From NCBI RefSeq assembly GCF_029867415.1, contig NW_026705447.1:62001-126000 (forward strand): a DNA stretch of 64,000 nt. Direction: 5' to 3'. The translations under genes and the position numbers were made by a program. The stretch's first letter is position 1. Every line of letters begins with the position of its first letter. The notes under the pieces were generated by a model. It saw only the letters and a list, made by a program, of their open reading frames with translations. It had not been told where the DNA came from and did not search any database. Positions 20,702 to 53,796 of this stretch are shown here, in pieces. The stretch comes from Vicia villosa (lineage: Eukaryota > Streptophyta > Magnoliopsida > Fabales > Fabaceae).

Positions 20702-23626
20702 GCTGCCCCTGTTCAATTATCTTAAACCTGAAGATGTAGAGTGGTTTGCGCGCCAGTCGGCATCTGAAGGTGGAAGATGATTGAACATAAGAATACCAAG
20801 AAATTTGCCCTATTTGAAGTAGGGACTTTTGTCGGAGATGGGCTTGTGGATGCCATCTGGTAGTTGAATTTAGAGAAGATGTCGTTCGCGCGTTGATCGT
20901 GTCATTACCGTTCGTGGTAAATGAGTTAGATCCTTTGGAGAGATAATCGTGTCTACATCGTTCGTGATGATAGATTTAGTTCTCTTGTCCTGTCAGCACA
21001 ATTCGTAGTGGCTGAATTAGACTGGAAAGGTCAGTGATCGTGTCTACACCGTTCGTGATGATAGAATTAGATCTCTGAGAGTTGACCGTGTCAGTACCGT
21101 TCGTAGTATCTGAATTAGATCTTCTGTCGTGTCAGTACCGTAGTAGCTGAATTAGACTGGAAAGGTCAGTGATCGTGTCTACACCGTTCGTGGTGATAGA
21201 ATTAGATCTCTGAGCGTTGACCGTGTCAGTACCGTTCGTAGTATCTGAATTAGATCTTCTGTCGTGTCAGTACCGTTCGTAGTAGCTGAATTAGACTGGA
21301 AAGGTCAGTGATCGTGTCTACACCGTTCGTGGTGATAGAATTAGATCTCTGAGCGTTGACCGTGTCAGTACCGTTCGTAGTATCTGAATTAGATCTTGAA
21401 AATGATCGTGTCATTACCGTTCGTGGTAGATGAATTAGACCTTGGAAAGTTGGAGTTTTCGTTCGTTTGTCTGTACCTGTATTCTGCAAAAGGTAAGATT
21501 AAATTTGTGCAATGTCATGATGCATGGGTTATGTAATGAATCCCTCAAAATAAATGAGAGCTTTTGCATGTTATGTATGAGTTCATTATGAGGTAATGTA
21601 TGCAATGTATGAATATGTTTATGATATATGATATGAGAATATGATTTATGTAGATCTTTATGTCCTTGTAATTGTACTGTCTGATCTTGTCTTGAAGATG
21701 CTCAGTTGGGAATTTATGATTTCTGCTTGGAGATGATCAGTGACTTGATGTTCCCTGATTGGTGATAAAAATATTGATAAATCATGTTGGAGGAGAGCGA
21801 CAGTGTTGAAGATGTAAACTCTGTTGGGCAGCCATGTCTTTATCGGGAGCGTTTGAAGATATCTTCTTAATGATTACTCTGTGGGGAAATGATCTTATGA
21901 CCGTGGCTCTGTGGGGAGATGTGGGTGTCTTGAAAGTTGCCCCCAGTATTATAGTACCTACCATTCCTGGATTTAATTAGGACACGCCACTGAATGTTGA
22001 TCAAGATGTCAAACTGGACTTGCATAGATTTGCCCCAGTTAGTAGGAACTTTGGAAAGATTCGCCTCGCGAGGACTTTATGAGATGTGAACTATGGGCGA
22101 CATGCCCCTAGTAATCGTAGGCCCCAGACAATGTCCTATGTTGGTTGAGAAGTAGCTTCAAATCTACTTGGATGCATGCCCCTGATTGTTTTGGCATCCT
22201 TAAGAGATTCTCAGAATCTTGACTTGATTGCCCCAGATTGATTGGACGAAGCGTGCCATGCCCTTTGTATACGTAGGAGACATGGCTTCTTGGAGTAATA
22301 TTGTCTGTCGGGATGACTTTCAGTCATTAGTTGTACCCTGTGCAAATTCTTTCTGTTGCTAACATTTGAAATTATGTAGCAGAATATGTTTAATAATGAA
22401 TTCATGAGATGCAATGCATACGTCTGTCTTGAGTTTTTGAAAAAGCATTAAAAAAAAGAGATGTAAAAGCGTGATATTTGTAAAAAACATGCTATTTGTA
22501 ACAACGTGATGTTTGTAAAAACGTGATATCAACTCGGCATTTGTGGTAAACCTTAAGGAGTCAGGATACCTTTGTCGTGACAGTATGCTTTCGAACTAAC
22601 CATGCTTCAGTTAGGACTTTCAAGGGTTGTAACGTGGCTTGGTTCACGGTTTAAGAAACAAAGGATAAAGGCTCAAAATTTGATTGTACCCACCCCTCTT
22701 CGTGATGATCTTCAGTCCTAAGCTCAGTTAATTCAACTTACGCATTCAGGTTCCAAGAGACTTTTGGATTTGCATCTTTGATAATGATGATGGTTCACAA
22801 GCAGAGAGAACTTTTGAGATGGCAGTCACTTCTTCCTTTTGGTAGTCATAACTTTGAGTTGTTCAAGAATTTATTGACTTCTTTTTTCATCTTTTTGATA
22901 TCCCTAACTTTTGCCTGAACTGTCTCTTTTGGGCTTACAGTCAGCGGGACGCCTTGATTTTTTGCCTAAGTCTTTTTTGACTTCGCAGGCTTTTTTTTTT
23001 GTATATATGTTTCTTCCATTTTTTTTTTTTTTGAAAGATATTGACTGCCTTGCTTAATGATTGATGAACCATCATTGGCTTTTGATTGACATCTCCAACA
23101 CTTCTTTGATGTGTACGGATGAACGCTTGTGATTGAAACCTTTGTTGAAAGGTGTACAGAGTGATTCTCTTAAAATAGAATGCACAGCCAAATAACTGAG
23201 AACTACCCTGCCCCAGGTTAAAAATGCGGGTGTTTCGTACAAAAAGAAACTCCTACTCCTTAGGCTCAAAGGGGTTGACGAGGGATTAACATCCTTATAT
23301 CTCCATTTTTTAGGGATTTGAACAAATGCCTGTACATCGTCAACACGGTCTGTTCGAAAGCATAGTGTATGAAATTGTGGTATCGTTTTCGTCATTCTCC
23401 CTCAAAAGGCTTACAGCTTTAGTTGAGTATCATAAAGAATATGCAAAGTAAAGATGCAGTTTAGATGAGTGATAGCGAAATAATTTATTCAAGACAAATA
23501 TATGCAATGCACTGATGATGATTATTAAAACAAATAATGTCTATCATAATTTGAATGTTTAAACAAACAGAATAGAAATTGCAAATGAAAGTAAAACTAA
23601 TGATCTAAAGTTCATCCACTATGACA
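20702..23626 (-). other. 3' untranslated region of young Ogre
   Basis: 2.9 kb between the gag-like ORF and the 3' LTR without a gene. It holds the hairpin array at 20902-21433, homopolymer T tracts (about 22988 and 23020) and otherwise unassigned sequence. The PPT-like AACAGGGGCAGC on the minus strand abuts the LTR at 20702. Confidence 0.6.
20902..21433 (-). repeat. Tandem array of 12 covarying hairpins, loop GTTCGT
   Basis: Monomers of about 35-55 bp, grouped in 135-139-bp higher units, each read CGTG-[4-nt]-[4-nt]-GTTCGT-[4-nt]-N-[4-nt]-ATTAGA. The 4-nt blocks pair: distal TCAT/ATGA, TCTA/TAGA or TCAG/CTGA; proximal TACC/GGTA, CATC/GATG, CACC/GGTG or CACA/AGTG. A single unpaired base sits between the two helices on the same side every time. 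Fully paired examples are 20902-20924, 20952-20974, 21178-21200, 21317-21339 and 21411-21433; 21132-21149 has lost four loop bases. The transcript is the complementary strand, so the RNA loop reads ACGAAC. Confidence 0.85.
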
Positions 23627-26870: not shown

Positions 26871-26887
26871 CCCCAGCAGAGTCGCCA
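26871..26887 (-). promoter_or_regulatory. Primer-binding site of young Ogre
   Basis: TGGCGACTCTGCTGGGG on the minus strand, four bases inside the 5' LTR end. Same class as at 78-94 and 40084-40100. Confidence 0.8.
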
Positions 26888-26891
26888 GTTC

Positions 26892-29800
26892 TGTAATACG
26901 GTGAACTAACTTTTTATCGATCGAAATGTCGCGGTAAGCAAGAGTCGCCACCGACTTTTATTTTATCCAAATTTAATTAGAAAGGCTAAAAGAACAGGAA
27001 AAACCTTTTAAATAAAATAGGGTTCGGGGGGTAATTATGCAAAGGGAAGGTGTAAGGCACCCTTTGCATCCATGGTTATCCATGGGCTCTTAACTTGCTT
27101 TGCTCTTTTTGTTTCAGAAAGGTAGAAGAAGAAGATATGGACTTTAGCTCGTAAATGAGCGTAGCCATATTGAAGAATTTTGAGAAAGAATATTTGAAAA
27201 TATTTAGAGCAAGGCAAAGCAATTTGAGAGCAATTTACCTTATATTTGAGAAATCTGTTCTTTCAGCCTTTCAGAGCGAAAGGGTCTATCCTTGCCATAA
27301 GAGGGCAGGAAGCCTTCCATTTGGAGGTTTAAGGGTCATCGAAACATCCTTTACCATAAGACTATCCCATGCCATAGGAGGGCAGGTAGTCTAAGGCAAG
27401 GATCAGAATAAGCCTTTTCGTAGGCAGCCTGAAGATACCTCAGCCTTTTTCCGTAGGCAACATCCGAGGGTCGAGGTCATTTGTGTATCGAAGGCAGCAT
27501 CATTAGGGTCGTGACCTTTTTATCGAGGCAACGCGGCTGAGGTATCCTCGAATTCGAGGGACATGGCTTATTCTGCAGAAAAACGAAGGCAACAGGCAAC
27601 AGGCAACAGGCAACAAGCAACAGGCAACAGGCAACAGGCAACAGAGAGGGTTACCCAAAAGGTGTGCGTGTGTGTAACAATCACGTGATTAATTCGATTA
27701 AATTATCTTATAATTAGTGAGGCTAATTCGATTTAAAGTTGCACTCCCTAAATTACTAACCACGCAGTTATAGAGTGATAATAATAATAATAATAGAGGG
27801 AAGGGGGAAATTGAAACCAGCGGAGGAAAGGGGGATTGAAACCAGCGGGATAATAAATAAATAAGTCTGACATAAGTAATAATTAGGGTTTAGAGTTACC
27901 GACTATGCGAGGCTTTGACATTTGGCAACCCTGAAAAGGCGGAAAAATGGCAAACAGAAATAGGGTGAGTGCATTATCGGTTCGGAGGCAAACATTATAA
28001 CCCTAAAAAATAATGAAATTTTAAAAAAAGAAAAGAAAAAAAATAGATAAAGTAAATAGACACTTAGCTTCGAATTTGATCTGATATGGTTAGAGTCGGA
28101 GGAAACCTCGGAGGTAACCCTGAAAAGACAAGGCAGAACGAGAAGGTGAACGCAAGGCAAATCCTAACCACAAATCAATTAAAAGAATAAGATTAAATAA
28201 AGCAGCACACTTATCTTCGAGGTTTGTTGAAGGCGCGCACTCGAGGCGAATTATATTGCTAACCCTGATAAGGAAATAACATAAAATCAGTGTACGGCTT
28301 ATTCTTCATAAACCCTAATTAGGGTACGAAGTTGAATAAAAGAAAATAAATAATTTAATTAATTATTGGTCTAACGACCTAATTAATTAAATTGAACCGA
28401 AAAATAAAATCGGATGCGAAATATATTTTTTGGAAATTTTTTAGAATTTTAGTGAATTAAATAAGAATTTTAGTATAAAAATAAGTGTTTTTTAATAATA
28501 ATAATAATATAAATATTAATGATTAAAAAAAAAAAAAAAAAAATATTAATAAATATTAAAAATATTTTTTATAAAATTAGTTATTAGTTTTCATAAACTT
28601 AAAAAAAAATAAAAAAAAGAATTAAAAACAAAATAGATATATATTTAAATAAACAAAATAATATGTTGCATAATTAAAAAAATAAAAATAAAAAAAATTG
28701 CAAAAATACTTAGCTGGGATCAGGTGTGGACGCGCGCGTGGACTCTGGTGGATCTTCAGCATCTGGCGCGTTGGATTGAGGATGATGACGATCGGATGGC
28801 TGGAAACGTGAGGGAGCATGCGAAGAACGTACGTCTTAACGCACTGGATTACCAGATTTGAAAGTTTCCCTGCGCGCGTTTCTGGACCAATCAGACGATG
28901 ACGCGTGGTCATCTCCTTCCTCCAACCGTCGTGTTAGCTCTGGTTCATACCTTTACCAACAGACGGTTCCGTAGCCATAGCCCTGCCATTTACGAATACA
29001 AGCAAACAAAGACAGAAATTTTTCGCGAGGCCACCTTTATGTTCGTCTGGGCCTCACGAGTTCAACCATGGTCTCAATTTGACCTAAAAGTACCTGTACT
29101 GAGAAACCCTAAAACGAAACCCTAACATTTGATAATGACATAACTCGATACAAGTAGGTAAACAATGAATTATTCATCCAGAAACATTCAGTGCACTATA
29201 ACAAACAATATGATGCCATCGAAACATGTTTATATGCTATGAATTAAAGGGATCGAGTTTGAAAATTTCATGACATACCTTGGCTTACAGGAGGAAATTC
29301 TGGGGTTATTGACCGCGTGTGATGATTGCAATTGCTTCAGAGACCTTCAGGGCACGTATTAGAAGCCTTGGATTGAATTGAATCGCCCTTGAATTCAAAA
29401 ATCGATTCTCACTTTTCTTGAACTTTTAGAGCTTGATTAGGGTTCTTTAGCTGCAGCCTCCGTCCCCTTATGATCTGAGCATGATGTACTTATATATGAG
29501 AGTGGATTAGGGTTGTTATTTTGGAGAGAATCTCATTCAATCTTTGATTTGCAAATTGAAAAAATTGATTGGAAATATGTTCTTAAAGTTTCCAATTTTG
29601 GCCTAAACTCAATATTTTCTTCACCAATTTGTTTCACACGAATTTGTAATGAATATTGATTATATTTGGTGATTAATGTTGATTGTATTTGAAGAGAAAA
29701 CCAATCTTTCCAATTTTTCCATTTAATTGATTAAATATATGATTTTAAATGATTAAAAATTCAAATAAAATCAAATATTCATCATATTTTCGTGGCAAAT

Positions 29801-30664
29801 AGATTTTGGGCTCTAAATGAATTATGGATCAAGATTGAATCAAAGTTACTTAGGCCCATTTGCAAAACTATTTGGATTTCTTCACATTTTTCCCTCCAAA
29901 ATAGCCTAACTTTGACAAGGTGTATCTCCCTCAATTTTTGAGGTATGGAGGTGTTCTAGGACATTTTGGAAACCTTGGAGAGTCCTTTATCCAATGCTTT
30001 TGGTCCCATATCAGAATCTTCTTCCATTCTTATTTTATGACCTTTTGAAAAACATGTCTTTTTGTTGACTTTTGAAAAGGACCTGTAATGTATGAAGCCA
30101 TATCTCTTAAACCATTGACCTATGGGCTTTGATTCTTGGACCATTGGATAGAGGAATGAATTCCCTTCAAAATGAGCTTTGGTGGGAATTTTTCTGATCA
30201 AGTATGAATATTTGGTGAATTTTCAAAGTTTGGTTGCCTTTTTTAGTTCATGCCCAAAATAGCAACTCTTGACTTTTGACTTCTCTGATCTTTCCTTGCA
30301 TCATCATGATCAACCCTTGATCAAATGATGATTTTAGGGTTATGAGGATATTTTTGACCAAGTATCTTGAACTCTGACTGTATTTTGACCTGAAATGACT
30401 GTTTTGCCCTTGAGAGTCGACTGTTGACCTAATCCAGACTTGAGGAGCCAAATTTGCTCTGTTTGACTTGAAACTTTACATGGAGATGTTTTGGGATGTT
30501 AGTGACCTTATGGAACCACCTTGAGCCATTGATTCACTGATTTTCCTCTGAATTATTCAAACCCTAGTTTAGAACTTCTGTGTGGGAGACTGTGTTTTGG
30601 AGCTTTGTCTTTTGATTTGGTTTTGTGTATGAAAAATAGCATGGGCAAATTTTGGGGTATGACA
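26892..30664 (-). repeat. 5' LTR of young Ogre
   Basis: 3,773 bp, repeating 16927-20701 at an offset of 9,965 then 9,963 bp; the change falls at the poly-A run (19 here, 21 there). I saw no substitution in the stretches compared, and all small frames are identical. Confidence 0.95.
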
Positions 30665-36672: not shown

Positions 36673-36945
36673 CTCATTTTCATACCCCAATTTTTTACCC
36701 TAAGATCATATATCATTCATATTCCAATCATTAATCAAGAGCTTCACTTGGAAGTTTTGTTTGTGGTGTTGCACTCACCTCATCAATAAGAGGGACCGTC
36801 AAGCACCAATGATTGTTTATCTTGTATGCATATTATACTAACCCAAATACCAAAAATATTGCTTTGTTTCTTTGTAGACTTTTGTTTTGTAGGTACCAAG
36901 CCAAGACATGCAATAAACAAGGCATTTTCCACATTTTGGACTGAT

Positions 36946-37929
36946 GAAATCGATTTCCCTCTTGGGTAAATCGATTTCCCTGCAGCAATCTTCAACAAAA
37001 TCACATTCTGGACAACATGAAATCGATTTCCCTCCTGGGCAAATCGATTTCCCTAACGTATTTTGCGCCAAATTCTCTTCTGGAACAGAGTGAAATCGAT
37101 TTCACTCCTGGGGGAAATCGATTTCCTTAAGGCGAAATTCAAAAAAATAGAGAAGGAAGCTTGATTTGATTTTGGCACCTATTTTCTTTGACCATTTTTG
37201 TCATTTTACCAATTTTCCACCTCACCAAAATAATTCCCTTCATTAATTCCATTTTAACTTCATTTTACCATTTTTTACCATTTAAATGCCACTTCAATCA
37301 CCAATTAAACACAAGTTAATTAACTAAGAGCAAATGACCAAATTGCCACTACTCTTGCTCTCATCCTATAAATAGAGGCCACTACTCTCTCATTTCTCAA
37401 GCTTGGAGAGCCAAAAAATTGCTTGCAAATTCATTTCTCACCCTTTCCAAAACCCTCACCCAAAGTTCATTTTCATAAGATTAGTGAGATTCACATTGAA
37501 TCTTGCTAATTTTGAACTAAACCTCCTACATTTCTCTCCTTTCTTTGGTTGTTCATCACCAAATTTGAAGGATCTATACACTTTGTGCTTCCTCTTGAAG
37601 CTACTCCAAGACTTTTGTTCAAGAAGTGGTAATTTGCTAGATCCATGATGTAGATCTTTATTGTTTGTGTTCAATGCATCTGTGATGCTATATTGATGAT
37701 ATTTGCTGGTTTTGTGATGGAAATTTTGTGCTCAAGTTGATGTGTGATCATAAGGTGTTTGTATATTTGTTCAAATCAAGTTTCATGCCTTTAAATGATG
37801 TTTTTGCTGAAATTTACTCTGATGAAATCGATTTCCTTAAGGCTGAAATCGATTTCCTGCTGAACGGAGCTTGTTTTATTTGAAAACTGCACTATGGAAA
37901 TCGATTTCCCCCTGCATGAAATCGATTTC
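36946..37929 (+). other. Five paired GAAATCGATTTC palindromes in Ogre LTR
   Basis: Pairs: 36946-36957/36967-36978, 37019-37030/37040-37051, 37092-37103/37114-37125, 37824-37835/37845-37856, 37897-37908/37918-37929. Centre spacing is 21, 21, 22, 21 and 21 bp. The first, third, fourth and fifth pairs and the second share an invariant AAATCGATTT core; the spacer often reads CCCTCCTGGG, adding further base pairs. Three pairs lie upstream of the TATA box and two in the transcribed part. The other LTR keeps all five, with one arm damaged at about 51700. Confidence 0.9.
37367..37375 (+). promoter_or_regulatory. TATA box of Ogre 5' LTR
   Basis: TATAAATAG followed by a C/T-rich stretch suited to initiation; the same box is at 51265-51273. 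This would drive the full-length element RNA. Confidence 0.7.
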
Positions 37930-37995
37930 CTGCTGGCAGAATGTGGTTTTTTGCCTTTTTTATGCTTGTTTTGGCTTCCTTCTTCCTCCACTTCA

Positions 37996-38196
37996 TTAAT
38001 ATCATTGGATCTAGGATGTTGATAGGTTTGAAATGACCTAATCCATAATATTAGATGAATGATATTAATGATAGTGTGAGTTGATTATCTTTTGTGAATT
38101 TTATTCTTCTTCCTCCATTTCATTAATATCATCGGATCTAGGATGTTGATAGGTTTGAAAGGACCAAATCCATAATATTAGATGAATGATATTAAT
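37996..38196 (+). repeat. Tandem duplication of a 75-nt multi-stem hairpin
   Basis: Two units about 126 bp apart. In each, ATTAATATCAT and ATCTA at the start pair with TAGAT and ATGATATTAAT at the end, and GGAT...ATCC plus AGGT/ACCT or GGT/ACC pair inside. The units differ by a few bases, mostly in unpaired positions. Also present in the 3' LTR from about 51797. Confidence 0.7.
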
Positions 38197-40083
38197 GATA
38201 GTGTGAGTTGACTTTACTTTATGCATTTTATCTTCTTCTTCTCCTTTTTTCTTTTGATCGATGAAAGTCTTAACACTTTGAGAATTCTTATGGATTCTTA
38301 GTAAAGACTAGATCGTTACCTATTTTCTTTTCGTGCGGTATTGCTTTCGGAGAATGATCTACATATCATTTCTCTCGCATGCATTAGCACATAAAGTTTT
38401 GACCGGCCTCGTTGTAGGGTGATTTCTACATAAATCACTTGGCGATCTGCTTAACATAGCGCAATATTTCGTGTCCCGAACAAAAAAGATCAAATATGGA
38501 AGAGAATTGTATGCGGTTGATTTAAGACTTATGGAATTTTGTCGTGTAGTCGCTATGATTTTATCAAGCTTCTGATAAAGTTCCATTGAATTTAAATCCG
38601 AGAACATCCTTCACTCACCATCGATCTTTACTACTAACTTTGATAACATACTTGACAAGTTTCAAGATGGTTATCTTTAACATCTAACAATTGACTTTAA
38701 TTTCCGCACTTTACTATACCGTTCTTGATATTTCTCGCTTTATTGCTTTATTTTATCATTTCATCATATTTACATTCCGCTATTTTTCTCTTTGTCCATT
38801 TGGACATATGTTTATGTTTCCGCTATTTTCTCTTTGTCCACTTAGACCATACTTTACTTTTATGCTAAAACACTAATAAATAACAAAAAATCTAAAAAAC
38901 ACCTAAGGCTCTCTTTTGGACTATTGGTTACTATCCCTAGCATTTTGGAGACTCGGACTTATGGACTTAGGACCTCTGGACTCTCATTCTGTTATTACTC
39001 TGTGATTGTTCTGTCTGTCTGGCATTGGATTGTTGTCTGTTTATGTGTGCAGGTTTTTCCTTGAAAGCCCTTGATGGTTAATTCCAAGGCATTGAGATAA
39101 GGATTTTACCCGAAAACAGCCGTTACTCTGCCCGATTTTCGTCAGAATTTTAATATGCTTAATGCAAAGTGGTGCTAAGATAATAAGTTCATCTGGATCC
39201 CCAAGTGATAATGTTGGTTTAGTATTGATATTCCAAAGGAAGGGAAATCTACCTTGACTCATAATGTCAAGTGTTGGCTTCTTATTTCGGTTAGACCGTT
39301 TCTTTCCTTAGCTTTTATTTTACGTAATAGGATAGCCTCTTCATCTCCTCCCATTCTGAAATTTTCAAAATCTTCTCCCTTTTTCAAAAACCTTCTTATG
39401 TTTGCAATCATTTTCAAAACGTTTTCTTTAAAATATCTTTTGCCCTTAGTGGCCTTTTCCTCTTTTCTTCAAAAGTTTAGACACTGTTAATTGTCGGAAC
39501 GAGTGGTTATACCCCACGATTTTGAAATTGATTGATATAATGAGATCTTTTCCGCATGAGAGAGCTAGTGGCATACTCGTTGATTTTATCCGAGTTGGAG
39601 CCCTTCTTTCATTTGCGATGCAAAGAACTCATTTGTTCTCATGCTTAAGATCAATGGCCGAGTATTTCTCTCCAACGACGATAAAGTGTTTATTCGTTTT
39701 AAAAACGTTTTTCCCTTTAAGCGGAACTACATTAGCTCTGACTTCTTCATTGCACCGAGGAGGTATGTAGGCACAAGGCTTAACGTCTTGCCGAGCTTAT
39801 TTTGAAAATAAAACAAACCGTTTTTTAGCACACATGACACAGATTTTCAAAAAGGTTCCTGTTGAGTACCACAGATATGAGGGGTGCTTTAAACCTTCCC
39901 CTCATATAATCAACACCCGAACCTGAGTTCTCTTTCTTGTTTTTTAAAAAAACAAAACTTTGGGTTTTACGTTCTTTTCCCTTTTCCTTTGAAAAAATAA
40001 AGCGCGGTGGCGATTTCAAATGAAATATTGATTCGAGTCAATTCCATGGCTTCGATATCAGATTTTCCCCGCTACAGAAAAAA

Positions 40084-40100
40084 TGGCGACTTCACTGGGG
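40084..40100 (+). promoter_or_regulatory. Primer-binding site of plus-strand Ogre
   Basis: TGGCGACTTCACTGGGG, seven bases after the LTR end, matching the Ogre PBS class. Confidence 0.8.
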
Positions 40101-40876
40101 AACCAGTTTTAAGTGTGTTAAGCCTATTTTTGTTTATCTGTGTGTTTTTATTTGTATATATTGTTGTGTGCTTTGTTTGTTTATTTTATTTTTTTTCTTC
40201 TTTTTGGTGCTCGATGGTTCCTCTGTGATGAGATAAAGTTCTAACCCGGACTTTGGTGAGTAACTTGAGATAGGAGGTGGTAAGACCAATAGTCGCATGT
40301 CAGGAGCAATCCTTACCATGAGCGTCATATGGTGGAACCCTAATCAGTGGAGGCCTCATGGAAGGTAGTAGAGGTTGTTACGAACCATCGTGATAACGCT
40401 ATTACTTTCAATAGTGAGTGTCTGTAGAAACTGAATGGCCTAGAACCTTTTTAACACATCTAAGCCTTTTTAGGATGTAGTGCAGAAACAAGATCAAGTA
40501 CCAATTTGAGCTTGTTGTCATGCGATACTACGCTCAGACGAGGTCTTTTTAGGCATATTATTGGCGCCCATGAGCAATTGTGCGTGCCGGTAATATCTGA
40601 TAGAAGATTGAAAACTCTGGGAACCTTTGTAGAACCCGATTGGCAGGTACAAAACTCCTTAGATCACGCCTTGTGGGATGGGTAGACCCATGGCTCCATG
40701 CTCGTGACGTCGAACCTAAGAACCTTGATTGTGTGATTTTGTGTGACTTGCCGTGATCTTGTGTGCTCTTGATTGTGATTGATGCATAAACCATGCATTC
40801 ATGCATTCATAAAAATGACATTCACAAATGGTTTTCAAGGAACTTAGAGACATTTTTTGTAAACATCACAGGTACC
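40101..40876 (+). other. Leader of plus-strand Ogre
   Basis: About 780 bp of untranslated leader with a T-rich tract near 40180. Short frames only. Nothing else is recognised. Confidence 0.6.
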
Positions 40877-41503: not shown

Positions 41504-44122
41504 ATGGAAGGTCTTGAACAAGAGAATCGTGAGCTACGTGAAGAGGTTGTTACTTTGAGATCTGGTGTGGATCGTCTCACTGCTCTGGTTGAGACATTGA
41601 TGGCTACTCAGAATCAGAATCAGAATCGGGTTCCTCCCCCCGACGCCCAAGCTCAGGGTCAGACCAGTGTGATTTCTGAAATTGCTGCTACAACCATTCC
41701 TGCTGTTCCTGTTGATGCTACTCAACAACGTATGCCTAATGGATATCCCTGGGGTATGCCTGAAGGTTATTTGTCTGTTCCTGAGATGACTCGTCCGTTG
41801 ACTCCTGTTATGGTCAACACATCTCCTATTGTTCATACTGGTCCTTTTGTCCCAGAGCCCATTTATGATGTTGCTCCAAGTGAAATTCAAGATAGAATGG
41901 ATGGTTTCCAAGATCAGTTTGAAGAATTGCAGAAAGAGATGAAAGCCCTGCGTGGGAAAGAACTGTTTGGAAAGAATGTGCATGATCTTTGCCTTGTTCC
42001 CAACGTGAAAGTACCTGCTAAGTTCAAATTACCTGAATTTGAGAAGTATAAGGGAAACTCTTGCCCTTAGGCACATTTGGTGATGTATGTAAGGAAGATG
42101 TCCACTCACACTGATGATCAACGTCTGTTGATCCACTATTTCCAAGACAGTTTGACTGGAGCTGCTTCTAAGTGGTATATGGGCCTTGATAGCACTCATA
42201 TTCGCACTTTTAATGACTTAGCTGAAGCGTTTGTGAAGCAATACAAATATAATGTGGACATGGCTCCTGATAGGGATCAATTGCGAGCTATGATGCAGAA
42301 AGAGAAGGAATCCTTCAAGGAATATGCTCAGAGATGGCGTGAGGTTGCCGCCCAAGTGGTTCCTCCAATGGAAGAAAAAGAGATGACTAAGATTTTCCTT
42401 AAGACTCTTGGTCCGTTTTACTATGACAAAATGATTGCGAGTGCTCCTGTAGACTTCACCGAAATGGTGGGTATGGGTGTCAGGTTAGAAGAAGCTGTGC
42501 GAGAAGGTCGTCTGGTTCGGAATGACAATTCGTCTGGTGGTGCGAAGAGGTATGGTTCTTCATTCCAGAAGAAGAAGGAATCAGATGCTAATGCTGTTTC
42601 TCATGGGAGGAATAGTCGATTCAGAAATCAATCCCAACAAGTGGCGTCAGTAACTCCTGTTGTGAATTCAGTGCCTATAGCTCCTGATAATCAACAACCA
42701 GCAAGGCGGAATCCGTATCCTCGAGTTAATATTGATCCTATCCCCATGACATATACTGAACTGTATCCTGCTCTAATTCATAAGAAGTTGGTTCAACCAA
42801 GGTCAACACCTCCTGTTCCAGAGAAACTCTCTTGGTGGTACAAAGCTGATGCCACTTGTGCTTTTCATCAGAATGCTCCTGGGCATGACTTAGAGAATTG
42901 CTGGCCTTTGAAGAATGAAGTTCAGAGATTGGTTCGTTCTGGAATGCTTTCTTTCCGTGATATTGGCCCTAATGTGAAGAACAATCCGTTGCCAACTCAT
43001 GAAGCGTCTGCTGTGAATACGGTGTATTGGTGCCCTGGGAAGTATAAGGTTTACCGTGTGGAGCACATCAGAGGATCATTGGTAGAGATGCATGCCGCTT
43101 TGTGTGAATACAGTCATTATAAGCATAATCATGCTGCTTGTAGGATCTGTTCAGTTAATCCTCGAGGATGTTATATTGTGAGAAGAGATTTGCAAGAGAT
43201 GATAGACCAAAGGCTCATTGAGATTCTGAGGGATAGAGATGAAGATGATGTCAATGTGATTGAACGATGCTTTGAAATCCCGGAATGTGTAGAGATTGGT
43301 TATTATGGCAAAGCTGCTGTAGAACCTCTTGTGATATGTTTGCCTGGATCTGTACCTTATAGTTCTGACAAAGCTGTACCCTACAGATACAATGCCACCA
43401 TGTTGGAAGCTGGAAAAGAAGTTGAGATTAAGCCTCTGTCTTCTGTTGAGAATATAGCAGATGTTAGTAGAGTGACTAGAAGTGGACGAGTTTTTACTCA
43501 GCCCCAAACAGTTGTGGATGTCCAGAGGAATCCTACTCAAGTGCCTGTGAACAATAATGATGCGACAAAAGTGAATGGTGGATCATCTTCAGGAAAGGAG
43601 ATGGATGAGATTTTGAAGCTTATCAAGATGAGTGATTATAAGATCGTGGATCAGCTACACCGTACCCCGTATAAGATCTCTATAATGGAGCTGCTGACAA
43701 GTTCTCCTGCTCATAGGGATTCTTTGATGAAAATACTTGATCAAGACTTTGTGAATCATGATGTAACGCTGGATCAGTTTAATGGGGTTGTGAGTAATAT
43801 CACTGCGTGTAACAATCTGAGCTTCAGTGATGAAGATTTTCCTGAGGAAGGAAGAAATCATAATTTGGCTTTGCACATCTCTGTCAATTGCAAAGGGGAC
43901 TCAATGTCCAATGTGTTGATCTATACTGGTTCATCGCTGAATGTCATGCCGAAATCCACTCTTGCTAAGCTGTCTTATGGTGGCACACCAATGAGATTTA
44001 GTAATGTGATTGTCAAGGCTTTTGATGGATCGGAGAAATCAGTGGTTGGAGAGGTTGATTTGCCTATTGGTATTGGACCATTTGTCTTCAATATTACTTT
44101 TCAAGTCTGTGATGAAGCCTGA
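41504..44122 (+). pseudogene. Ogre gag-protease with in-frame stop
   Basis: Start chosen at MEGLEQENRELREEVV (41504), which opens a coiled coil; the same frame is open to 41384. Gag capsid-like part: FQDSLTGAASKWYMGLD and FVKQYKYNVDMAPDRDQLRA; zinc-like motif CAFHQNAPGHDLENCWPLKN. A single TAG at 42068-42070 breaks gag just before the capsid-like domain. Protease: the active-site DTG has become YTG (LIYTGSSLNVMPKSTL), removing the catalytic Asp. The frame ends at 44122 shortly after FNITFQV, where a deletion removes the end of protease and most of the linker to RT. Without these lesions it would supply capsid and processing. Confidence 0.8.
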
Positions 44123-44305: not shown

Positions 44306-44571
44306 GTAATTTGCTTTTATGTTTTTCAAAATCCTTTCATTCTGCCCAAGATGAAAGTGAAGTTGTTGGGTCGTTTTCTATTTGTTTTAAACATTAAAAT
44401 CATCAATAAAAGTCATTTTGTTTCTGCATATACATGCTTTTTATCTTTTTGCTTTTTCTGGAAAGTGGTAACACAAAAAACCTTAAGAAATGTTTTCATT
44501 TGCCATAATCTGCAAGATTACATGTTTGCATATATCTTTCCTTTTTTCTGAAATAATAATCACTTGTGCAG
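44306..44571 (+). other. Ogre intron between protease and RT
   Basis: 266 bp with donor CAAA|GTAATT, a T-rich tract and acceptor TTGTGCAG|A. Joining 44305 to 44572 gives ...HASK-LINKTVE in frame. The family carries an intron at this place, and splicing is required to connect protease with RT. The frame that seems to begin at 44564 includes eight intron bases and is not the real start of pol. Confidence 0.8.
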
Positions 44572-47500
44572 ATTAATCAATAAAACCGTTGAAAGTAATG
44601 ACCCTGCACCCTCTCCTAACTTCGAGTGTCCTGTGTATGAGGCGGAAGAAGAGAGTGATGAATGTATTCCTGATGAGATTTCCCGACTGCTTGAGCACGA
44701 GGAAGACACCATTCAGCCATATAAAGAGCCGTTAGAAGTCATCAACTTGGGTTCTGAAGAAGATATAAAGGAAGTCAAGATTGGGGCACTGCTTGGTCAA
44801 GATGTTAAGAAGAGGATGGTAGAGCTTCTTAAAGATTATGTTGACATTTTTGCGTGGTCCTACCAAGACATGCCTGGGTTGGACACAGATATTGTGGAGC
44901 ATCGTTTGCCATTGAAACCTGAATGCCCTCCTGTCAAGCAAAAGCTAAGAAGGAGTCATCCTGATATGGCGAAAAAGATTAAGAATGAGGTCTTGAAGCA
45001 GATAGACGCAGGTTTCCTTGTCACTTCTGTATATCCTCAATGGATTGCCAATATTGTGCCTGTTCCGAAGAAAGACGGAAAAGTTCGCATGTGCGTTGAT
45101 TATAGGGATTTGAACAAAGCCAGTCCGAAAGATGATTTTCCTCTACCTCACATTGATATGTTGGTAGATAGCACGGCAAAGTTTGAGGTTTTCTCCTTCA
45201 TGGATGGTTTTTCAGGATACAACCAGATTAAGATGGCACCTGAAGACATGGAAAAGACAACCTTTATTACGCCATGGGGGACATTCTGTTACAAAGTAAT
45301 GCCTTTTGGGCTGAAGAATGCTGGCGCGGCATATCAGAGGGCCATGACCACTCTTTTCCATGATATGATGCACAAAGAAATTGAGGTTTATGTGGATGAC
45401 ATGATTGCCAAGTCCCAGTCAGAGGAAGGGCACATGGAGGATCTTTTGAAGTTGTTTCAGCGTTTGAGAAAGTATCGTCTCCGCCTAAATCCAAACAAAT
45501 GTACTTTTGGTGTCCGTTCTGGAAAATTATTGGGTTTCATTGTCAGTCAGAGAGGAATTGAAGTAGATCCTGATAAAGTCAAAGCAATTCAGGAAATGCC
45601 AGCACCAAAGACTGAGAAACAAGTGAGAGGTTTCCTCGGACGTTTGAATTATATCTCTAGGTTCATTTCCAATATGACTGCTACCTGTGAGCCAATCTTC
45701 AAGTTGTTAAAGAAAAATCAGGGATGTGTGTGGAATGAAGATTGTCAAAAAGCTTTTGACAACATCAAAGAATATCTGCTTGAACCTCCCATTTTGCTCC
45801 CTCCAGCTGAGGGAAGGCCTTTGATTATGTACCTCACAGTGCTTGAAAATTCAATGGGATGTGTGTTGGGACAGCATGACGAGTCTGATCGAAAAGAGTA
45901 TGCAATATACTACCTTAGCAAAAAGTTTACCGAGTGCGAAACAAGATACTCGCTGCTTAAGAAAACTTGCTATGCTTTGGTGTGGGCTGCTCGCCGACTG
46001 AGACAGTATATGTTGAACCACACCACCCTATTGATTTCCAAAATGGATCCAATTAAGTATGTATTTGAGAAACCTGCATTAACTAGAAGGATCGCTCGCT
46101 GGCAAATGTTGTTATCAGAATATGATATTGAATATCGAGCTCAGAAAGCTGTGAAAGGAAGTGTGTTGGCGGAGTACCTTGCTCACCAACCAATTGATGA
46201 TCATCAATCTATCAGAATGAACTTCCCAGATGAAGATATATTGTATTTGAGAGCTCAAGATTGGGATGAACCGTTGCCAGAAGAAGGGCCAGATCCTGAA
46301 TCCAAGTGGGGCTTAATTTTTGATGGAGCTTCTAATGTTCATGGCCATGGAATTGGCGCCATTATTGTCACTCCACATGGGTCACATGTACCTTTCACTG
46401 CAAGGATATGTTTTGACTGTACAAACAATATTGCTGAGTATGAAGCTTGCATCATGGGACTTGAAGAGGCCATTAATCTGAGAATTAAGATTCTTGATGT
46501 TTATGGAGATTCTGCGCTTGTGATTAATCAGATTAAAGGAGAATGGGAAACTCGTCATCCTGGTTTGATCCCTTACAAAGATTACGCCAGAAGGCTATTG
46601 ACGTTCTTTAACAAAGTTGAATTCCACCACATCCCTCGAGACGAGAATCAGATGGCTGATGCTTTAGCCACATTGTCCTCCATGTACAAAGTGAATTTTC
46701 ATAATGAGGAACCTGAGATTACAATTAGACGTCTTGATAGACCTGCTCATGTATTTGTAGTTGAGGAATCAACAGATGAAAAGCCTTGGTATTTCGATAT
46801 TAAGCACTTCCTTCAGACTCAAGAATACCCACTTGGGGCATCAAATAAGGATAAGAAAACTTTGAGGAGACTAGCTAGTAGTTTCTTCATCAATGCTGAT
46901 GTTTTGTATAAAAGGAATTATGACATGGTTTTTCTCAGATGCGTGGATAGACACGAAGCAGACATGTTGATGCATGAAATTCATGAAGGATCTTTTGGTA
47001 CCCATGCCAATGGACATTCGATGGCTAAAAAGATGCTTAGAGCAGGTTACTATTGGCTTACAATGGAATCTGATTGCTACAAGTTTGTAAAGAAGTGTCA
47101 CAAGTGTCAAGTGTATGCTGACAAGATTCATGTGCCTCTGACACTTCTCAATGTTATTTCATCTCCATGGCCTTTCTCCATGTGGGGTATCGATATGATT
47201 GGCATGATTGAACCCAAGGCTTCGAACGGACATCGATTCATCCTGGTAGCAATCGATTACTTTACCAAGTGGGTAGAAGCTGCTTCATATGCTAATGTGA
47301 CAAAGCAAGTTGTGGTCAGATTTATCAAGAACAACATCATCTGCAGATATGGTGTACCGAGCAAGATCATTACTGATAATGGCTCTAATCTGAATAACAG
47401 TATGATGAGAGAACTATGTGAAAGTTTTAAAATTGAACATCACAACTCTTCGCCTTATAGGCCAAAGATGAATGGAGCTGTTGAAGCAGCAAATAAGAAT

Positions 47501-48034
47501 ATTAAGAAGATTGTGCAAAAGATGGTTGTTACGTGCAAGGACTGGCATGAGATGCTCCCATTTGCTTTGCATGGGTACCGTACATCTGTTCGTACTTCAA
47601 CCGGGGCAACTCCCTTTTCTTTGGTTTATGGTATGGAAGCAGTGCTCCCTATTGAGGTTGAGATGCCAACACTGAGAGTTTTAATAAAAACCAAGTTATC
47701 TGAGGCTGAATGGTGTCAGAGCAGGTTTGATCAATTGAATTTGATAGAAGAAAAGAGAATGACGGCTTTATGCCATGGTCACTTATACCAGAAAAGAATG
47801 AAGAAAGCTTTTGATAAGAAGGTTCGACCTCGTGTATTCAGAGAAGGCGACCTCGTGCTCAAAAGGATCTTGTCTTTCACCTCCGATTCAAGGGGCAAGT
47901 GGACTCCTAATTTCGAAGGACCATATGTTGTTAAGAAAGCCTTCTCTGGCGGTGCATTAATTATTGCAACTATGGATGGAGAGGAGCTCCCACGTCCCGT
48001 GAATGCTGATGTAGTCAAGAAATACTTCGCCTAA
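44572..48034 (+). CDS. Ogre pol exon 2: RT, RNase H, archaeal-type RNase H, integrase
   Basis: About 1,150 codons with no stop, made as part of a gag-pol product after splicing. Positions are from the first codon of the open frame. RT: KKDGKVRMCVDYRDLNKA (about 168) and active site YVDDMI (about 276). First RNase H (about 405-530) is degenerate: its first acidic residue is missing in IMYLTVLENSMGCVL. Second, archaeal-type RNase H (about 582-705) has the full set: WGLIFDGAS, EYEA, YGDSAL, MADALA. This second RNase H is the hallmark of the Tat lineage. Integrase: zinc region ending CHKC (about 845), then Asp in WGIDMIG, Asp in IITDNGSN and Glu in GAVEAANK; GPYVVKKAFSGG lies near the C-terminus. 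It synthesises cDNA and integrates it. All catalytic residues needed for RT and integrase are present, but upstream lesions probably prevent its production. Confidence 0.9.
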
Positions 48035-49255
48035 AAAATAATAAAAGAACAGCTCGCTAAGTTGAAAACCTGAAAGGGCGGCTTAGGCAAAAAAGAGCGT
48101 CTCGATGGATTGAAAACCCGAAAGGGCGGTCCAGGCAAAAATTAGAGACATAAACAGAATAAAATACCCGGTGGATTGAAAACCCGAAAGGGCGGTCCAG
48201 GCAAAAGTTAGGGATTCATGGCAAGTAACTACATCAGACAAGACTTGATCATCAGCAGTCATCTGTTTATCATGAAGAAGTTCAACACATTTCAACGGAA
48301 GCCTTTGCTTAGGAATTCCAAGTTGAGAGAGAGGACGGGGTCATTACATTTCAATGTACCTTTTCCACAAAATTACCACTTTCCAAACTTTGTAATCATC
48401 TATGGGGTCTTGCCTTTTGCAAGCTACCATTCTATTAAAAAGTTTGAGCCTTTACCCTTTATTGGCAATCTTATTTCTTTCATATCTCTCAAAATGTCAT
48501 TTATTGTTGATAGTAATTTTTAAAACAGAGAGAAAATTGATTTCAACAAAATCTTTTTTGAAAAATATAAAAGAAGTTTTGTTTGATTCATGAGTGCATT
48601 ACAAGGAATGGATATGTTGATGTATTCATATGCAAAAGGGGAAGAATATAGCCCACTTAATGTACTTCTGGCCTGGTTCGAAGATGATGTAGAACTCGGT
48701 TATTTTGTTTTCTCAGCTCCAATATTCCCTCAGTGTTGGGTAGCATTTATTCTGAAGCCATTAAAAGATTGTTATAGCAGTTTCTGCTCTGGTGTTCAGC
48801 TTGAGACATGCTTGATTATGTTATCCTCGTACTCTATCTCTTGAGTTACTCCTTGTGCTAAGTTTTGGCAGCATATACATCATTAACATGCATCAAAAAA
48901 AAGTCATGCATTCGCATTTGCTATCATGAAGTTTACTGTCAATCAGATTGCTCTTTCATTTAGAGTGTCTTAAGCAGAAAAAGCTCACTTTCCTTGAAAA
49001 TCCCCACTGAATTTGTTTCTAGGTGGATAATATGTTTCAGTTATTCTATTCAGATGTCTACGAACAGAAGACCAGTGAGTTTCTCCCTCATTTGGTTCAG
49101 TCTTTTTGGCAGTTTCTTTCCATCTGGTCATGGATTGAACTTTGGTCGCTGGATGATGAATGTTGAGATTATGCATTTGTGTTTGCATCCTCAAATCATT
49201 GAAAAAGTATTATTGATTGCTCTTCCCCGTCATTGGTACAAAGGGGCATCTCTTT
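48035..49255 (+). other. Proximal 3' UTR of plus-strand Ogre
   Basis: 1.2 kb without a gene. Its first 165 bp hold three hairpin units (48057-48199). The remainder has only short frames. Confidence 0.6.
48057..48199 (+). repeat. Three GAAA-loop hairpin units just after pol
   Basis: A conserved core TTGAAAACCYGAAAGGGCGG with CCC-GAAA-GGG (GNRA-type loop) is repeated three times and followed each time by GGCAAAA. Outer stems differ but pair: CTAAG/CTTAG (48057-48061/48082-48086) against TGGA/TCCA (48106-48109/48130-48133 and 48172-48175/48196-48199). The first unit begins 23 bp after the pol stop. Confidence 0.8.
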
Positions 49256-50150
49256 CTACCTCCAGTGGAACGTAGGTAGTTCACCTTCAGTGGAACGTTG
49301 GTGTATTTTGTTATCTTCATCGTCAGTGGTACGTCGATGTATTTTTCTTCAATACCTTCAGTGGAACGTTGGTATATGTTATCGTTAGTGGTACGGCGAT
49401 ACATCTCTTTCTACCTCCAGTGGGACGTTGGTAGTTCACCTTAAGTGGAACGTTGGTGTATTTTGTTATATCTTCATCGTCAGTGGTACGTCGATGCATT
49501 TCTCTTCAATACCTTCAGTGGAACGTTGGTATGTGTTATCGTTAGTGGTACGGCGATACATCTCTTTCTACCTCCAGTGGGACGTTGGTAGTTCACCTTC
49601 AGTGGAACGTTGGTGTATTTATTATCTTCATCGTCAGTGGTACGTCGATGTATTTCTCTTCAATACCTTCAGTGGAACGTTGGTATGTGTTATCGTTAGT
49701 GGTACGGCGATACATCTCTTTCTACCTCCAGTGGGACGTTGGTAGTTCACCTTCAGTGGAACGTTGGTGTATTTTGTTATCTTCATCGTCAGTGGTACGT
49801 CGATGTATTTTTCTTCAATACCTTCAGTGGAACGTTGGTATGTGTTATCGTTAGTGGTACGGCGATACATCTCTTTCTACCTCCAGTGGAACGTTGGTAG
49901 TTCACCTTCAGTGGAACGTTGGTGTATTTTGTTATCTTCATCGTCAGTGGTACGTCGATGTATTTTTCTTCAATACCTTCAGTGGAACGTTGGTATATGT
50001 TATCGTTAGTGGTACGGCGATACATCTCTTTCTACCTCCAGTGGGACGTTGGTAGTTCACCTTCAGTGGAACGTGGGTGTATTTTGTTATCTTCATCGTC
50101 AGTGGTACGTCGATGCATTTCTATTCCTATCATCAGTGGAACGATGGAGT
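49256..50150 (+). repeat. 155-bp tandem array, about 29 hairpins with CAGTGG loop
   Basis: Six periods begin at 49256, 49411, 49568, 49722, 49877 and 50032. Each 155-bp period has five hairpins with the loop CAGTGG (or TAGTGG) and different stems: CTACC/GGTAG, CACC/GGTG, CATCG/CGATG, ATACC/GGTAT and TATCG/CGATA. Next to the loop, two bases also covary: TT/AA, TC/GA, GT/AC. First period: 49256-49279, 49282-49303, 49318-49339, 49352-49375, 49380-49401. A diverged unit CATC/GATG follows near 50130. Legume Ogre 3' UTRs are known for variable tandem repeats; the hairpin logic is my observation. Confidence 0.85.
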
Positions 50151-50575
50151 GTTCTCTGTTAACGAAGGATAGGTATTCTGATTCCCCAGTGAAAGAGGAT
50201 GCATATTTCTCATCCCCAATGAAAGAGGGTGTCCCCTTTTCTCACCCTACTGAAAGGTGATGCTTTAACCTCTCTGGCGCGAAATGTTTTCCCCAGTGAA
50301 GTTTCTTTTCCCAGCAAAGTTTCGTCTCTCCCAACAGATTCTTATCTTCCCCAGTGGGATTCTTCCCACAAAGACATTTTGTGTTCCCAGTGGATTTCCT
50401 TTGCATCCCCAGTGTTGCTATGTTTCATCATCATCATATGCATTCATTAAACCTTTGCATTTCATCTTAGGATCAAAAATTGTGTGTTTTATATATTTAA
50501 GTCTCTTCAATCTCGTCAAAACGAAGATTTGCAATCATCGTACCTCCGGATCGAAGAAACTTAAATAGGGGCATC
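50151..50575 (+). other. Distal 3' UTR of Ogre with diverged AGTG units
   Basis: CCCAGTG or CCAATGAAAG motifs recur every 20-40 bp. Some still have pairing flanks, for example CACC/GGTG near 50244-50260. It ends in AAATAGGGGCATC before the 3' LTR, a possible PPT. Confidence 0.5.
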
Positions 50576-53500
50576 TGTCATACCCCAATTTTTGACCCTA
50601 AGATCATATATCATTCATATCCCAATCATTAATCAAGAGCTTCACTTGGAAGTTTTGTTTGTGGTGTTGCACTCACCTCATCAATAAGAGGGACCGTCAA
50701 GCACCAATGATTGTTTATCTTGTATGCATATTATACTAACCCAAATACCAAAAATATTGCTTTGTTTCTTTGTAGGCTTTTGTTTTGTAGGTACCAAGCC
50801 AAGACATGCAATAAACAAGGCATTTTCCACATTTTGGACTGATGAAATCGATTTCCCTCTTGGGTAAATCGATTTCCCTGCAGCAATCTTCAACAAAATC
50901 ACATTCTGGACAGCATGAAATCGATTTCCCTCCTAGGCAAATCGATTTCCCTAGTGTATTTTGCGCCAAATTCTCTTCTGGAACAGAGTGAAATCGATTT
51001 CACTCCTGGGGGAAATCGATTTCCTTAAGGCGAAATTCAAAAACATAGAGAAGGAAGCTTGATTTGATTTTGGCACCTATTTTCTTTGACCATTTTTGTC
51101 ATTTTACCAATTTTCCACCTCACCAAAATAATTCCCTTCATTAATTCCATTTTAACCTCATTTTACCATTTTTTACCAATTAAATGCCACTTCAATCACC
51201 AATTAAACATAAGTTAATTAACTAAGAGCAAATGACCAAATTGCCACTACTCTTGCTCTCATCCTATAAATAGAGGCCACTACTATCTCATTTCTCAAGC
51301 TTGGAGAGCCAAAAAATTTCTTGCAAATTCATTTCTCTCTTTTCTTTGGTTGTTCATCTCCAAATTTGAAGGATCTATACACTTTGTGCTTCCTCTTGAG
51401 GCTACTCCAAGACTTTTGTTCAAGAAGTGGTAATTTGCTAGATCCATGATGTAGATCTTTATTGTTTGTGTTCAATGCATCTTTGATGCTATATTGATGA
51501 TATTTGCTGGTTTTGTGATGGAAATTTCGTGCTCAAGTTGATGTGTGATCATAAGGTGTTTGTATATTTGTTCAAATCAAGTTTCATGCCTTTAAATGAT
51601 GTTTTTGCAGAAATTTACACTGATGAAATCGATTTCCTTAAGGCTGAAATCGATTTCCTGCTGAACGGAACTTGTTTTTTTTTGAAAACTGCACTATGGA
51701 AATCGATCCCCCCCTGCATGAAATCGATTTCCTGCTGGCAGAATGTGGTTTTTTGCCTTTTTTATGCTTGTTTTGGCTTCCTTCTTCCTCCACTTCATTA
51801 ATATCATTGGATCTAGGATGTTGATAGGTTTGAAATGACCTAATCCATAATATTAGATGAATGATATTAATGATAGTGTGAGTTGATTATCTTTTGTGAA
51901 TTTTATTCTTCTTCCTCCATTTCATTAATATCATTGGATCTAGGATGTTGATAGGTTTGAAAGGACCAAAACCATAATATTAGATGAATGATATTAATGA
52001 TAGTGTGAGTTGACTTTACTTTATGCATTTTATCTTCTTCTTCTCCTTTTTTCTTTTGATCGATGAAAGTCTTAACACTTTGAGAATTCTTATGGATTCT
52101 TAGTAAAGACTAGATCGTTACCTATTTTCTTTTCGTGCGGTATTGCTTTCGGAGAATGATCTACATATCATTTCTCTCGCATGCATTAGCACATAAAGTT
52201 TTGACCGGCCTCGTTGTAGGGTGATTTCTACATAAATCACTTGGCGATCTGCTTAACATAGCGCAATATTTCGTGTCCCGAACAAAAAAGATCAAATATG
52301 GAAGAGAATTGTATGTGGTTGATTTAAGACTTATGGAAATTTATCGTGTAGTCGCTATGATTTTATCAAGCTTCTGATAAAGTTCCATTGAATTTAAATC
52401 CGAGAACATCCTTCACTCACCATCGATCTTTACTACTAACTTTGATAACATACTTGACAAGTTTCAAGATGATTATCTTTAACATCTAACAATTGACTTT
52501 AATTTCCGCACTTTACTATACCGTTATTTATACTTCTCGCTTTATTGCTTTATTTTATCATTTCATCATATTTACATTCCGCTATTTTTCTCTTTGTCCA
52601 TTTGGACATATGTTTATGTTTCCGCTATTTTCTCTTTGTCCACTTGGACCATACTTTACTTTTATGCTAAAACACTAATAAATAACAAAAAATTTAAAAA
52701 ACACCTAAGGCTCTCTTTTGGACTATTGGTTACTATCCCTAGCATTTTGGAGACTCGGACTTATGGACTTAGGACCTCTGGACTCTCATTCTGTTATTAC
52801 TCTGTGATTGTTCTGTCTGTCTGGCATTGGATTGTTGTCTGTTTATGTGTGCCCGGTTTTCGTCAGAATTTTAATGTGCTTAATGCAAAGTGGTGCTAAG
52901 ATAATAAGTTCATCTGGATCCCCAAGTGATAATGTTGGTTCAGTATTGATATTCAAAAGGAAGGGAAATCTACCTTGACTCATAATGTCAAGTGTTGGCT
53001 TCTTATTTCGGTTAGACCGTTTCTTTCCTTAGCTTTTATTTTACGCAATAGGATAACCTCTTCATCTCCTCCCATTCTTAAATTTTCAAAATCTTCTCCC
53101 TTTTTCAAAAACCTTCTTATGTTTGCAATCATTTTCAAAACGTTTTCTTTAAAATATCTTTTGCCCTTAGTGGCCTTTTCCTCTTTTCTTCAAAAGTTTA
53201 GACACTGTTAATTGTCGGAACGAGTGGTTATACCCCACGATTTTGAAATTGATTGATATAATGAGATCTTTTCCGCGTGAGAGAGCTAGTGGCATACTCG
53301 TTGATTTTATCCGAGTTGGAGCCCTTCTTTCATTTGCGATGCAAAGAACTCATTTGTTCTCATGCTCAAGATCAATGGCTGAGTATTTCTCTCCAACGAC
53401 GATAGAGTGTTTATTCGTTTTAAAAACGTTTTTCCCTTTAAGCGGAACTACATTAGCTCTGACTTCTCCATTGCACCGAGGAGGTATGTAGGCACAAGGC

Positions 53501-53796
53501 TTAACGTCTCGCCGAGCTTATTTTGAAAATAAAACAAACCGTTTTTTAGCACACATGACACAGATTTTCAAAAAGGTTCCTGTGGAGTACCACATATATG
53601 AGGGGTGTTTTAAACCTTCCCCTCATATAATCAACACCCGAACCTGAGTTCTCTTTCTTGTTTTTTAAAAAACAAAACTTTGGGTTTTACGTTCTTTTCC
53701 CTTTTCCTTTGAAAAAATAAAGCGCGGTGGCGATTTCAAATGAAATATTGATTCGAGTCAATTCCATGGCTTTGATATCAGATTTTCCCCGCTACA
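50576..53796 (+). repeat. 3' LTR of plus-strand Ogre
   Basis: 3,221 bp, TGTCATACCCC...CCCCGCTACA. It lacks a 97-bp block (between about 51335 and 51345, present at 37441-37538) and an 81-bp block (near 52853). Substitutions are roughly 1-2% in the stretches I compared. Confidence 0.9.

Follow-up and report, generated by a model that had tools for sequence, protein, structure and literature searches.

Constant-loop hairpin arrays with compensating stems in the 3' untranslated regions of two LTR retrotransposons of Vicia villosa: possible recognition sites on the sense RNA

We describe here two arrays of small hairpins in a 64,000-nucleotide stretch of the Vicia villosa genome (NCBI RefSeq assembly GCF_029867415.1, contig NW_026705447.1, positions 62,001 to 126,000 of the forward strand), which we call the window. 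Each array lies in the 3' untranslated region (UTR) of a long terminal repeat (LTR) retrotransposon and presents a single loop many times over, on stems whose sequence changes while their pairing is kept. Array 1 belongs to an element that we judge, from its layout, to be Ogre-like (Ogre/Tat lineage). In fact, its pol frame matches Pfam RVT_1 (167-327), RT_RNaseH (418-520), RVT_3 (593-703) and rve (870-967), which gives the Ty3/gypsy order of reverse transcriptase (RT), RNase H and integrase together with the second RNase H-like domain that marks Ogre elements of the Tat lineage. The element also bears another mark of this group, a tandem array that follows pol and precedes the 3' LTR. The two LTRs are 98.1-98.4% identical over three blocks. 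Between the gag and pol frames lies a gap of 441 bp (44123-44563) that looks intron-like and carries TTGTGCAG close to its end.

Array 2 sits on the opposite strand, in a second element (16921-30664, minus strand) whose open frames of at least 200 amino acids are one with a DUF7745 domain (PF24924) and one without a match; the Pfam search of these frames revealed no RT domain. This carrier of array 2 is probably non-autonomous and, by the 99.9% identity of its LTRs, it is very young. The features of both elements are collected in Table 1.

Table 1. Positions, in window coordinates, of the two elements and their hairpin arrays.
Feature	Position	Strand	Remarks
3' LTR, second element	16921..20701	-	99.9% identical to 26885-30664
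Array 2: 12 bulged hairpins, loop ACGAAC	20895..21441	-	3' UTR of second LTR element
5' LTR, second element	26885..30664	-	LTR pair comparison
5' LTR, array-1 element	36680..40076	+	direct repeat of 50578-53796
Primer binding site TGGCGACTTCACTGGGGA (putative)	40084..40101	+	immediately 3' of 5' LTR
gag(-pro) open frame	42077..44122	+	Pfam Retrotrans_gag 1.1e-12
pol open frame: RT, RNase H, second RNase H-like domain, integrase	44564..48034	+	Pfam
Array 1: 29 hairpin units, core AGTGGNAC	49247..50161	+	~155-bp tandem period, 5.9 copies
Unit type 1, CTACC/GGTAG, first copy	49256..49279	+	
Unit type 2, CACC/GGTG	49282..49303	+	
Unit type 3, CATCG/CGATG	49318..49339	+	
Unit type 4, ATACC/GGTAT	49352..49375	+	
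Unit type 5, TATCG/CGATA	49380..49401	+	
End unit, degenerate in window	50126..50151	+	CATATCA/TGGTGTG in 26 units from 26 loci
Remaining 3' UTR, hairpin-like CCAATGA/CTACTGA motifs	50162..50577	+	CATCC/GGGTG, TCACC/GGTGA
3' LTR, array-1 element	50578..53796	+	direct repeat of 36680-40076

Array 1 counts 29 AGTGG cores between 49264 and 50135, arranged as five unit types in each ~155 bp plus the end unit. A preliminary description of this DNA had spoken of about 29 CAGTGG-loop hairpins, of five differing stems per 155-bp period and of a 3' UTR position; the count, all five stems as listed there and the place between pol and 3' LTR were recovered in our analysis. When base -k upstream of AGTGG is set opposite base k+3 downstream, the pairs k4-k7 make up the common stem, k3, k8 and k9 pair additionally in some types, and k1 is chiefly C-G or T.G. 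Added up over the five types, the stem comes to 24; when the flanks were shuffled and the register was not fixed, 7 of 20,000 trials attained this value. Among the 120 ways of assigning the arms to one another, the true one stands alone at the top.

To follow this pattern beyond the window, we collected units from 45 loci. Thirty of them, the window's copy included, came from a DNA search that used the 3' flank as query and in which scoring covered 40 of 2,383 candidates. Another 15 were taken from the top of the list of places of the loop word CAGTGGAACGTT and lie without exception on one contig (C1); this word has 10,307 places in the genome, against 329 for its reversed control. Array units are present in 42 of the 45 loci and number 1,148, which reduce to 161 distinct forms; in the other three (L043, L053 and L055) the loop word lies outside any array. 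Over all 1,148 units, Watson-Crick or G.U pairing reaches 98.8% at k4, 99.3% at k5, 99.3% at k6 and 98.3% at k7. Relatives, in which the preliminary description had suggested looking for new stems on the unchanged loop, do bear such stems: CACCG/CGGTG (L048), ATGCC/GGTAT (L051) and TATATCA/TGGTATA (L044), besides CATATCA/TGGTGTG. Recombinant units that mix the arms of two types (TTCACCT with TGGTAGT, 5 units) pair less well.

Of the 161 distinct forms, 52 occur in at least 2 loci each; we aligned these as a nine-pair hairpin and compared their covariation with 500 shuffles. Paired cells amount to 73.3% (67.3+-1.1 in the shuffles, 0/500 as high), cells changed on both sides to 58 (28.8+-5.8, 0/500), and the register outdoes all slides of 1-3 columns, which pair 29-61%. 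Thus, a constant loop on compensating stems, which is the core of what had been claimed, is borne out by the both-sided cells together with the 98-99% pairing at k4-k7. The two bases flanking the loop had been said to covary too, and this applies to about half of the cells without being a general rule: 52.9% of the cells are paired in the inner helix proposed there, against 97.1% in the outer one, and in types CATCG and TATCG the bases beside the loop pair only after a one-base shift of the loop.

The higher-order arrangement of the units varies between arrays, with a 95-bp period at L057, periods of 155 and 193 bp at L044 and an irregular spacing at L051. At L048, the units CTACCTTCAGTGAAACGCTGGTAG and CATCTCCAGTGAAAGATG link the AGTGG loop with downstream CCAGTGAA motifs (~960-1035, sense, just 3' of the array). 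No AGTGG array was seen at L058-L063, places guessed to be UTRs, and a scan of viral contigs gave four stretches with a single match in each. Downstream of array 1 itself, the five CAGTG words in 50162-50577 have flanking stems at background level (scores 6-13 vs 9.1+-3.6).

Array 2 has the same position and design, as the preliminary description had noted of the window's other array. We aligned 27 units (11 from the window, 15 from L081 and 1 from L082), 23 of them distinct. The pattern used to select them demanded [GT][GAT]T after the loop, which may bias three positions towards pairing but leaves the outer stems unaffected. The alignment yields a 12-bp hairpin: GATC/G[AG]TC is followed by an internal loop and by two stems of four pairs each, with a bulge of one base between them, and the loop ACGAAC closes the structure. 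Its 276 cells are 97.1% paired (85.5+-1.2 in shuffles, 0/500), 32 cells are changed on both sides (9.3+-2.5, 0/500), and register slides pair 21-39%; the one pair formed by columns 12 and 28 is G-C in 11 units, A-U in 6 and U-A in 6. RNAalifold, unaided, returns the same fold with 11 of the 12 pairs. The single-nucleotide bulge is kept as well: the register with a bulge of 1 pairs 58 of 72 outer-stem cells (0/3,000 permutations), and bulges of 0 or 2 give no pairing excess in that stem. On the sense strand the predicted fold is a succession of these hairpins, at z -3.60 (0/100 shuffles); the antisense strand folds at an ordinary z -0.72 (24/100), and six units folded singly lie between z -1.4 and -3.4. 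A model of these units gives 28 matches in the window plus 20 further 3' UTR pieces, 27 of which are its own training units. The loops of the two arrays had been called unrelated; their letters are, and the stems mostly have a YAYC/GRTR core in common.

Several observations weigh against reading selection into these patterns. The units of array 1 are copies, 11 forms recurring in at least 13 loci, and related sequences can surpass every shuffle on the paired-cell and both-sided-cell measures. When pairs are counted, array 1 has 6 with both-sided change against 5.4 in shuffles (240/500) and 18 further pair types against 18.9 (421/500), neither of them above shuffles; array 2 has 6 against 4.2 (43/500) and 15 against 12.9 (46/500), and these values of array 2 are suggestive only. 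Folding energy adds to this. The six periods of array 1 fold like dinucleotide shuffles (z +0.35, -0.49, +0.64, +0.51, +0.44 and +1.42), and for the whole 915 nt, at z +2.96, 20 of 20 shuffles are at least as stable. The preliminary description had itself named shuffles that fold equally well as an outcome that would refute it; we no longer count the folding energy of the whole array in favour of array 1, since shuffles do equally well or better.

The hairpins nevertheless appear when pairing is kept local. If no pair may span more than 30 nt, the real order of the arms takes rank 3 among the 120 permutations (59 by unlimited minimum free energy, 74 by ensemble), and k4-k7 pair with a mean probability of 0.72-0.81, against ~0.2 without limit. 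One period at this span is equalled by 92 of 500 dinucleotide shuffles; for the full array, none of 60 shuffles does as well at span 30 and 22 of 60 do at span 40, but these shuffles also break the tandem order. In these folding models, array 1 shows no sign of selection for global stability, and its hairpins can form locally, for example during transcription.

Could the history of tandem repeats alone have produced the arrays, with a few ancestral hairpin variants being amplified and serving no present function? The recurrence of the 11 forms would fit, as would pair and pair-type measures not clearly past the shuffles in either array, the unexceptional whole fold of array 1 and the symmetry of its one-step private variants (see below). 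We still hold such an origin to be improbable: compensating stems occur in two arrays with different loops, and array 2 resides in a very young element, where 12 hairpins match the model, 11 of them from the training set.

A further angle on selection comes from the exceptions to Watson-Crick pairing, because G.U and A.C are at equal mutational distance from it. In array 2, the non-Watson-Crick cells comprise 24 G.U, 3 A.C and 5 others among the 276; in array 1, the exceptions at k4-k7 are 59 G.U against 24 A.C (176 distinct forms); other families combined give 18:10. Because G.U is preferred over A.C and because, in array 2, the fold is strand-specific and the bulge is kept, the data point to selection on the sense RNA, with good support in array 2 and moderate support in array 1. 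Here too, there are points on the other side. Ten of the 24 G.U in array 2 are at the loop-closing pair, without which the ratio is 14:3; outside k1-k3, the columns touched by the selection pattern, it is 10:3; and when chance loop words are retained, k1-k8 minus the bulge give 16 G.U against 11 A.C. The excess in array 1 is confined to k5 and k7 (47:10, with 12:14 at k4+k6), shrinks to 11:5 when only recurrent forms are counted, and is 16:15 among private one-step variants outside k1. Binomial values for any of these ratios presuppose an independence that copies of a unit do not have.

The even ratio among private variants is what a mutational origin would give, in which template switching by RT or a repair polymerase perfects quasi-palindromes and makes stems covary without selection. 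Such perfecting would delete bulges, however, and neither the conserved bulge and internal mismatches nor the G.U preference and sense-only fold stability of array 2 would be expected from it, so we regard this origin as rather improbable. We give still less credit to dyads acting at the DNA level, as cruciforms or protein-binding sites in the integrated element. The symmetry does exist on both strands and the conserved core could serve as a DNA motif, yet variable arms around a fixed centre are the opposite of the usual dimer site, and array 2, with its bulge and a fold confined to one strand, does not suit the idea; this seems to us very improbable.

To explain these observations we propose, with a probability of roughly 0.4, that the arrays are cis-acting structured elements of the sense RNA for multivalent, family-specific recognition, most likely marking the element's own genomic RNA. 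In array 1, some 29 small hairpins would display one conserved loop on the sense RNA, selection maintaining the pairing of the stem and leaving its sequence free; the second element would follow the same scheme with another loop and a longer, bulged stem. A constant loop, a free but paired stem and high copy number have, we infer, the look of a multivalent RNA-binding site. The loop could be read by a multi-site protein, for which the Gag of the family itself is the likeliest candidate and a host RNA-binding protein the alternative. The array would then single out the genomic RNA of its element to be packaged or transported, with loops that differ by family as self-versus-other recognition requires. 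Packaging by the own Gag is our first choice because loops vary by family and non-autonomous elements need their partner's proteins; relatedness and the G.U points have reduced our confidence in this proposal.

Its main rival is an export or stability element, the array helping the unspliced, intron-bearing genomic RNA to leave the nucleus. The place between pol and 3' LTR and the hairpin design are those of export elements, and the intron-like gap between the gag and pol frames fits as well. According to the available part of PMC12786077, there is a functional intron in Ogre, cis-acting export elements are present in IAP and MusD, and RNA export of plant LTR retrotransposons has been without direct study so far. 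Export elements bind host factors, so their loop should stay constant between families, yet each of the two arrays has a loop of its own; we find export unlikely, though it is the rival that we take most seriously.

Does the scheme extend to other Ogre 3' UTRs? The 20 further pieces mentioned above are 1.3-1.5 kb upstream of the first junctions between polypurine tract and LTR listed on C1 (the junction word has 16,564 places, its control 0). Arrays in these pieces combine other loops with paired stems: CNNNGC with CTATCA/TGATAG; TGTTTTAYCT with CAATCA/TGATTG; TCATTG with CTCAAC/GTTGAG; NTCT with ATCTT/AAGAT and GTCTT/AAGAC; and TAACGCAC with AGTC/GACT and AACC/GGTT. A sister array at L068 and L069 has kept the stems CTACC/GGTAG and CACC/GGTG and altered the loop to CAGTAAA[AC]GT. 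Among 2,000 permutations, those reaching the observed value were 0 for loop A, 8 for B, 247 for C, 1 for D, 0 for E, 114 for F and 12 for G; these are not independent tests, because the loops were chosen by eye. Inverted repeats, left uncollapsed, exceed all 40 shuffles in 13 of the 20 pieces, 10 of the 20 being one look-alike family. With distinct arms, the observed/expected ratio is 1.23 in 11 UTR pieces, against 0.77-0.79 under three other base rules, and 1.16 in 12 control pieces, against 0.99-1.13; taken singly, z exceeds 2 in 3 of 11 UTR and 2 of 12 control pieces. A blind test of word symmetry in 22 pieces did not set Watson-Crick (mean best z 2.71) apart from three control rules (2.48-2.61). 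Since the loops were picked by eye and both of the blind tests came out weak or negative, a hairpin rule beyond the two arrays is only a lead. We nonetheless envision, as a doubtful but attractive extension, that Ogre 3' UTRs are self-recognition barcodes, a family loop shown many times over on covarying hairpins and coevolving with the family's own RNA-binding protein; if so, barcode turnover would explain the hypervariability of these UTRs and the repeated seeding of new satellites.

Two other identities for the loop were rejected. The first makes it the complement of the element's own primer binding site (PBS). Four of the five exact matches of at least 9 nt to the PBS complement on the plus strand of the window do lie between array 1 and the 3' LTR (TCCCCAGTGAAGT and shorter), but L065 (TCA-type PBS, 12.6 kb) and L067 (CTG-type, 12.5 kb) have similar-reading UTRs, both with CCCCAGTGAAG, so that the motif does not follow the type of PBS in these two elements; their 3' ends were matched to the PBS by position and the UTRs compared by reading. 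The PBS pattern TGGCGACTNNNCTGGGGA itself occurs 26,897 times genome-wide (control 0), the first listed places on C1 comprising 6 of TCA type, 3 of CCA type and the rest CTG, and the putative PBS of the second element is TGGCGACTCTGCTGGGGA. PBS types are treated in the part of PMC6317226 available to us.

The second is the iron-responsive element, which the loop letters CAGUGG of array 1 resemble. No such element was among the five Rfam matches in 48000-50700 at E up to 10, and none of the matches fell within array 1 at E<=10. The iron-responsive element has a CAGUGN loop, and its stem geometry is unlike that of array 1.

The 3' UTR of Ogre/Tat LTR retrotransposons is known for hypervariable tandem repeats, reportedly described in Macas 2009. 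The arrays described here resemble the Ogre/Tat repeats of PMC7004042 (Vondrak 2019) and PMC3305785, as far as the available parts of these papers go, in lying between pol and 3' LTR, in being tandem and in having a family-specific sequence, and differ from them in that no hairpins, conserved loops or covariation are reported there; the soybean element Gmr9/GmOgre contains five interleaved minisatellite families (PMC3305785, in part). Arrays between POL and 3'LTR in Retand, a related lineage, occupy the same region, for which a regulatory role has been proposed (PMC11963269, in part). In the main texts of PMC7004042, PMC11963269 and PMC3305785 the terms 'hairpin' and 'secondary structure' have 0 occurrences, and 'palindrom' appears solely in one reference title of PMC11963269. 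The structural rule had been presented as new, and among the literature matches listed (titles and abstract starts, with Macas et al. 2009 outside this coverage) it is indeed undescribed; its novelty holds to that extent. Transposable elements have elsewhere given rise to RNA stem-loops, as in enod40 RNA (PMC10578108, in part).

Ogre hypervariable repeats are a known source of satellites, for which the literature searched describes no constraint. A structural rule would supply them with a candidate function, be it packaging, export or protein binding, and would explain why position and design persist despite sequence turnover. The loop could also serve as a marker of which autonomous element serves which non-autonomous one. 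The constitutive transport element (CTE) of Mason-Pfizer monkey virus (MPMV) is a retroviral RNA export element. Like the MPMV CTE, the RNA transport element (RTE) of IAP and the MusD transport element (MTE), the arrays would be structured, cis-acting RNA within an LTR element; unlike these export elements, they line up 12 and 29 variants of a hairpin.
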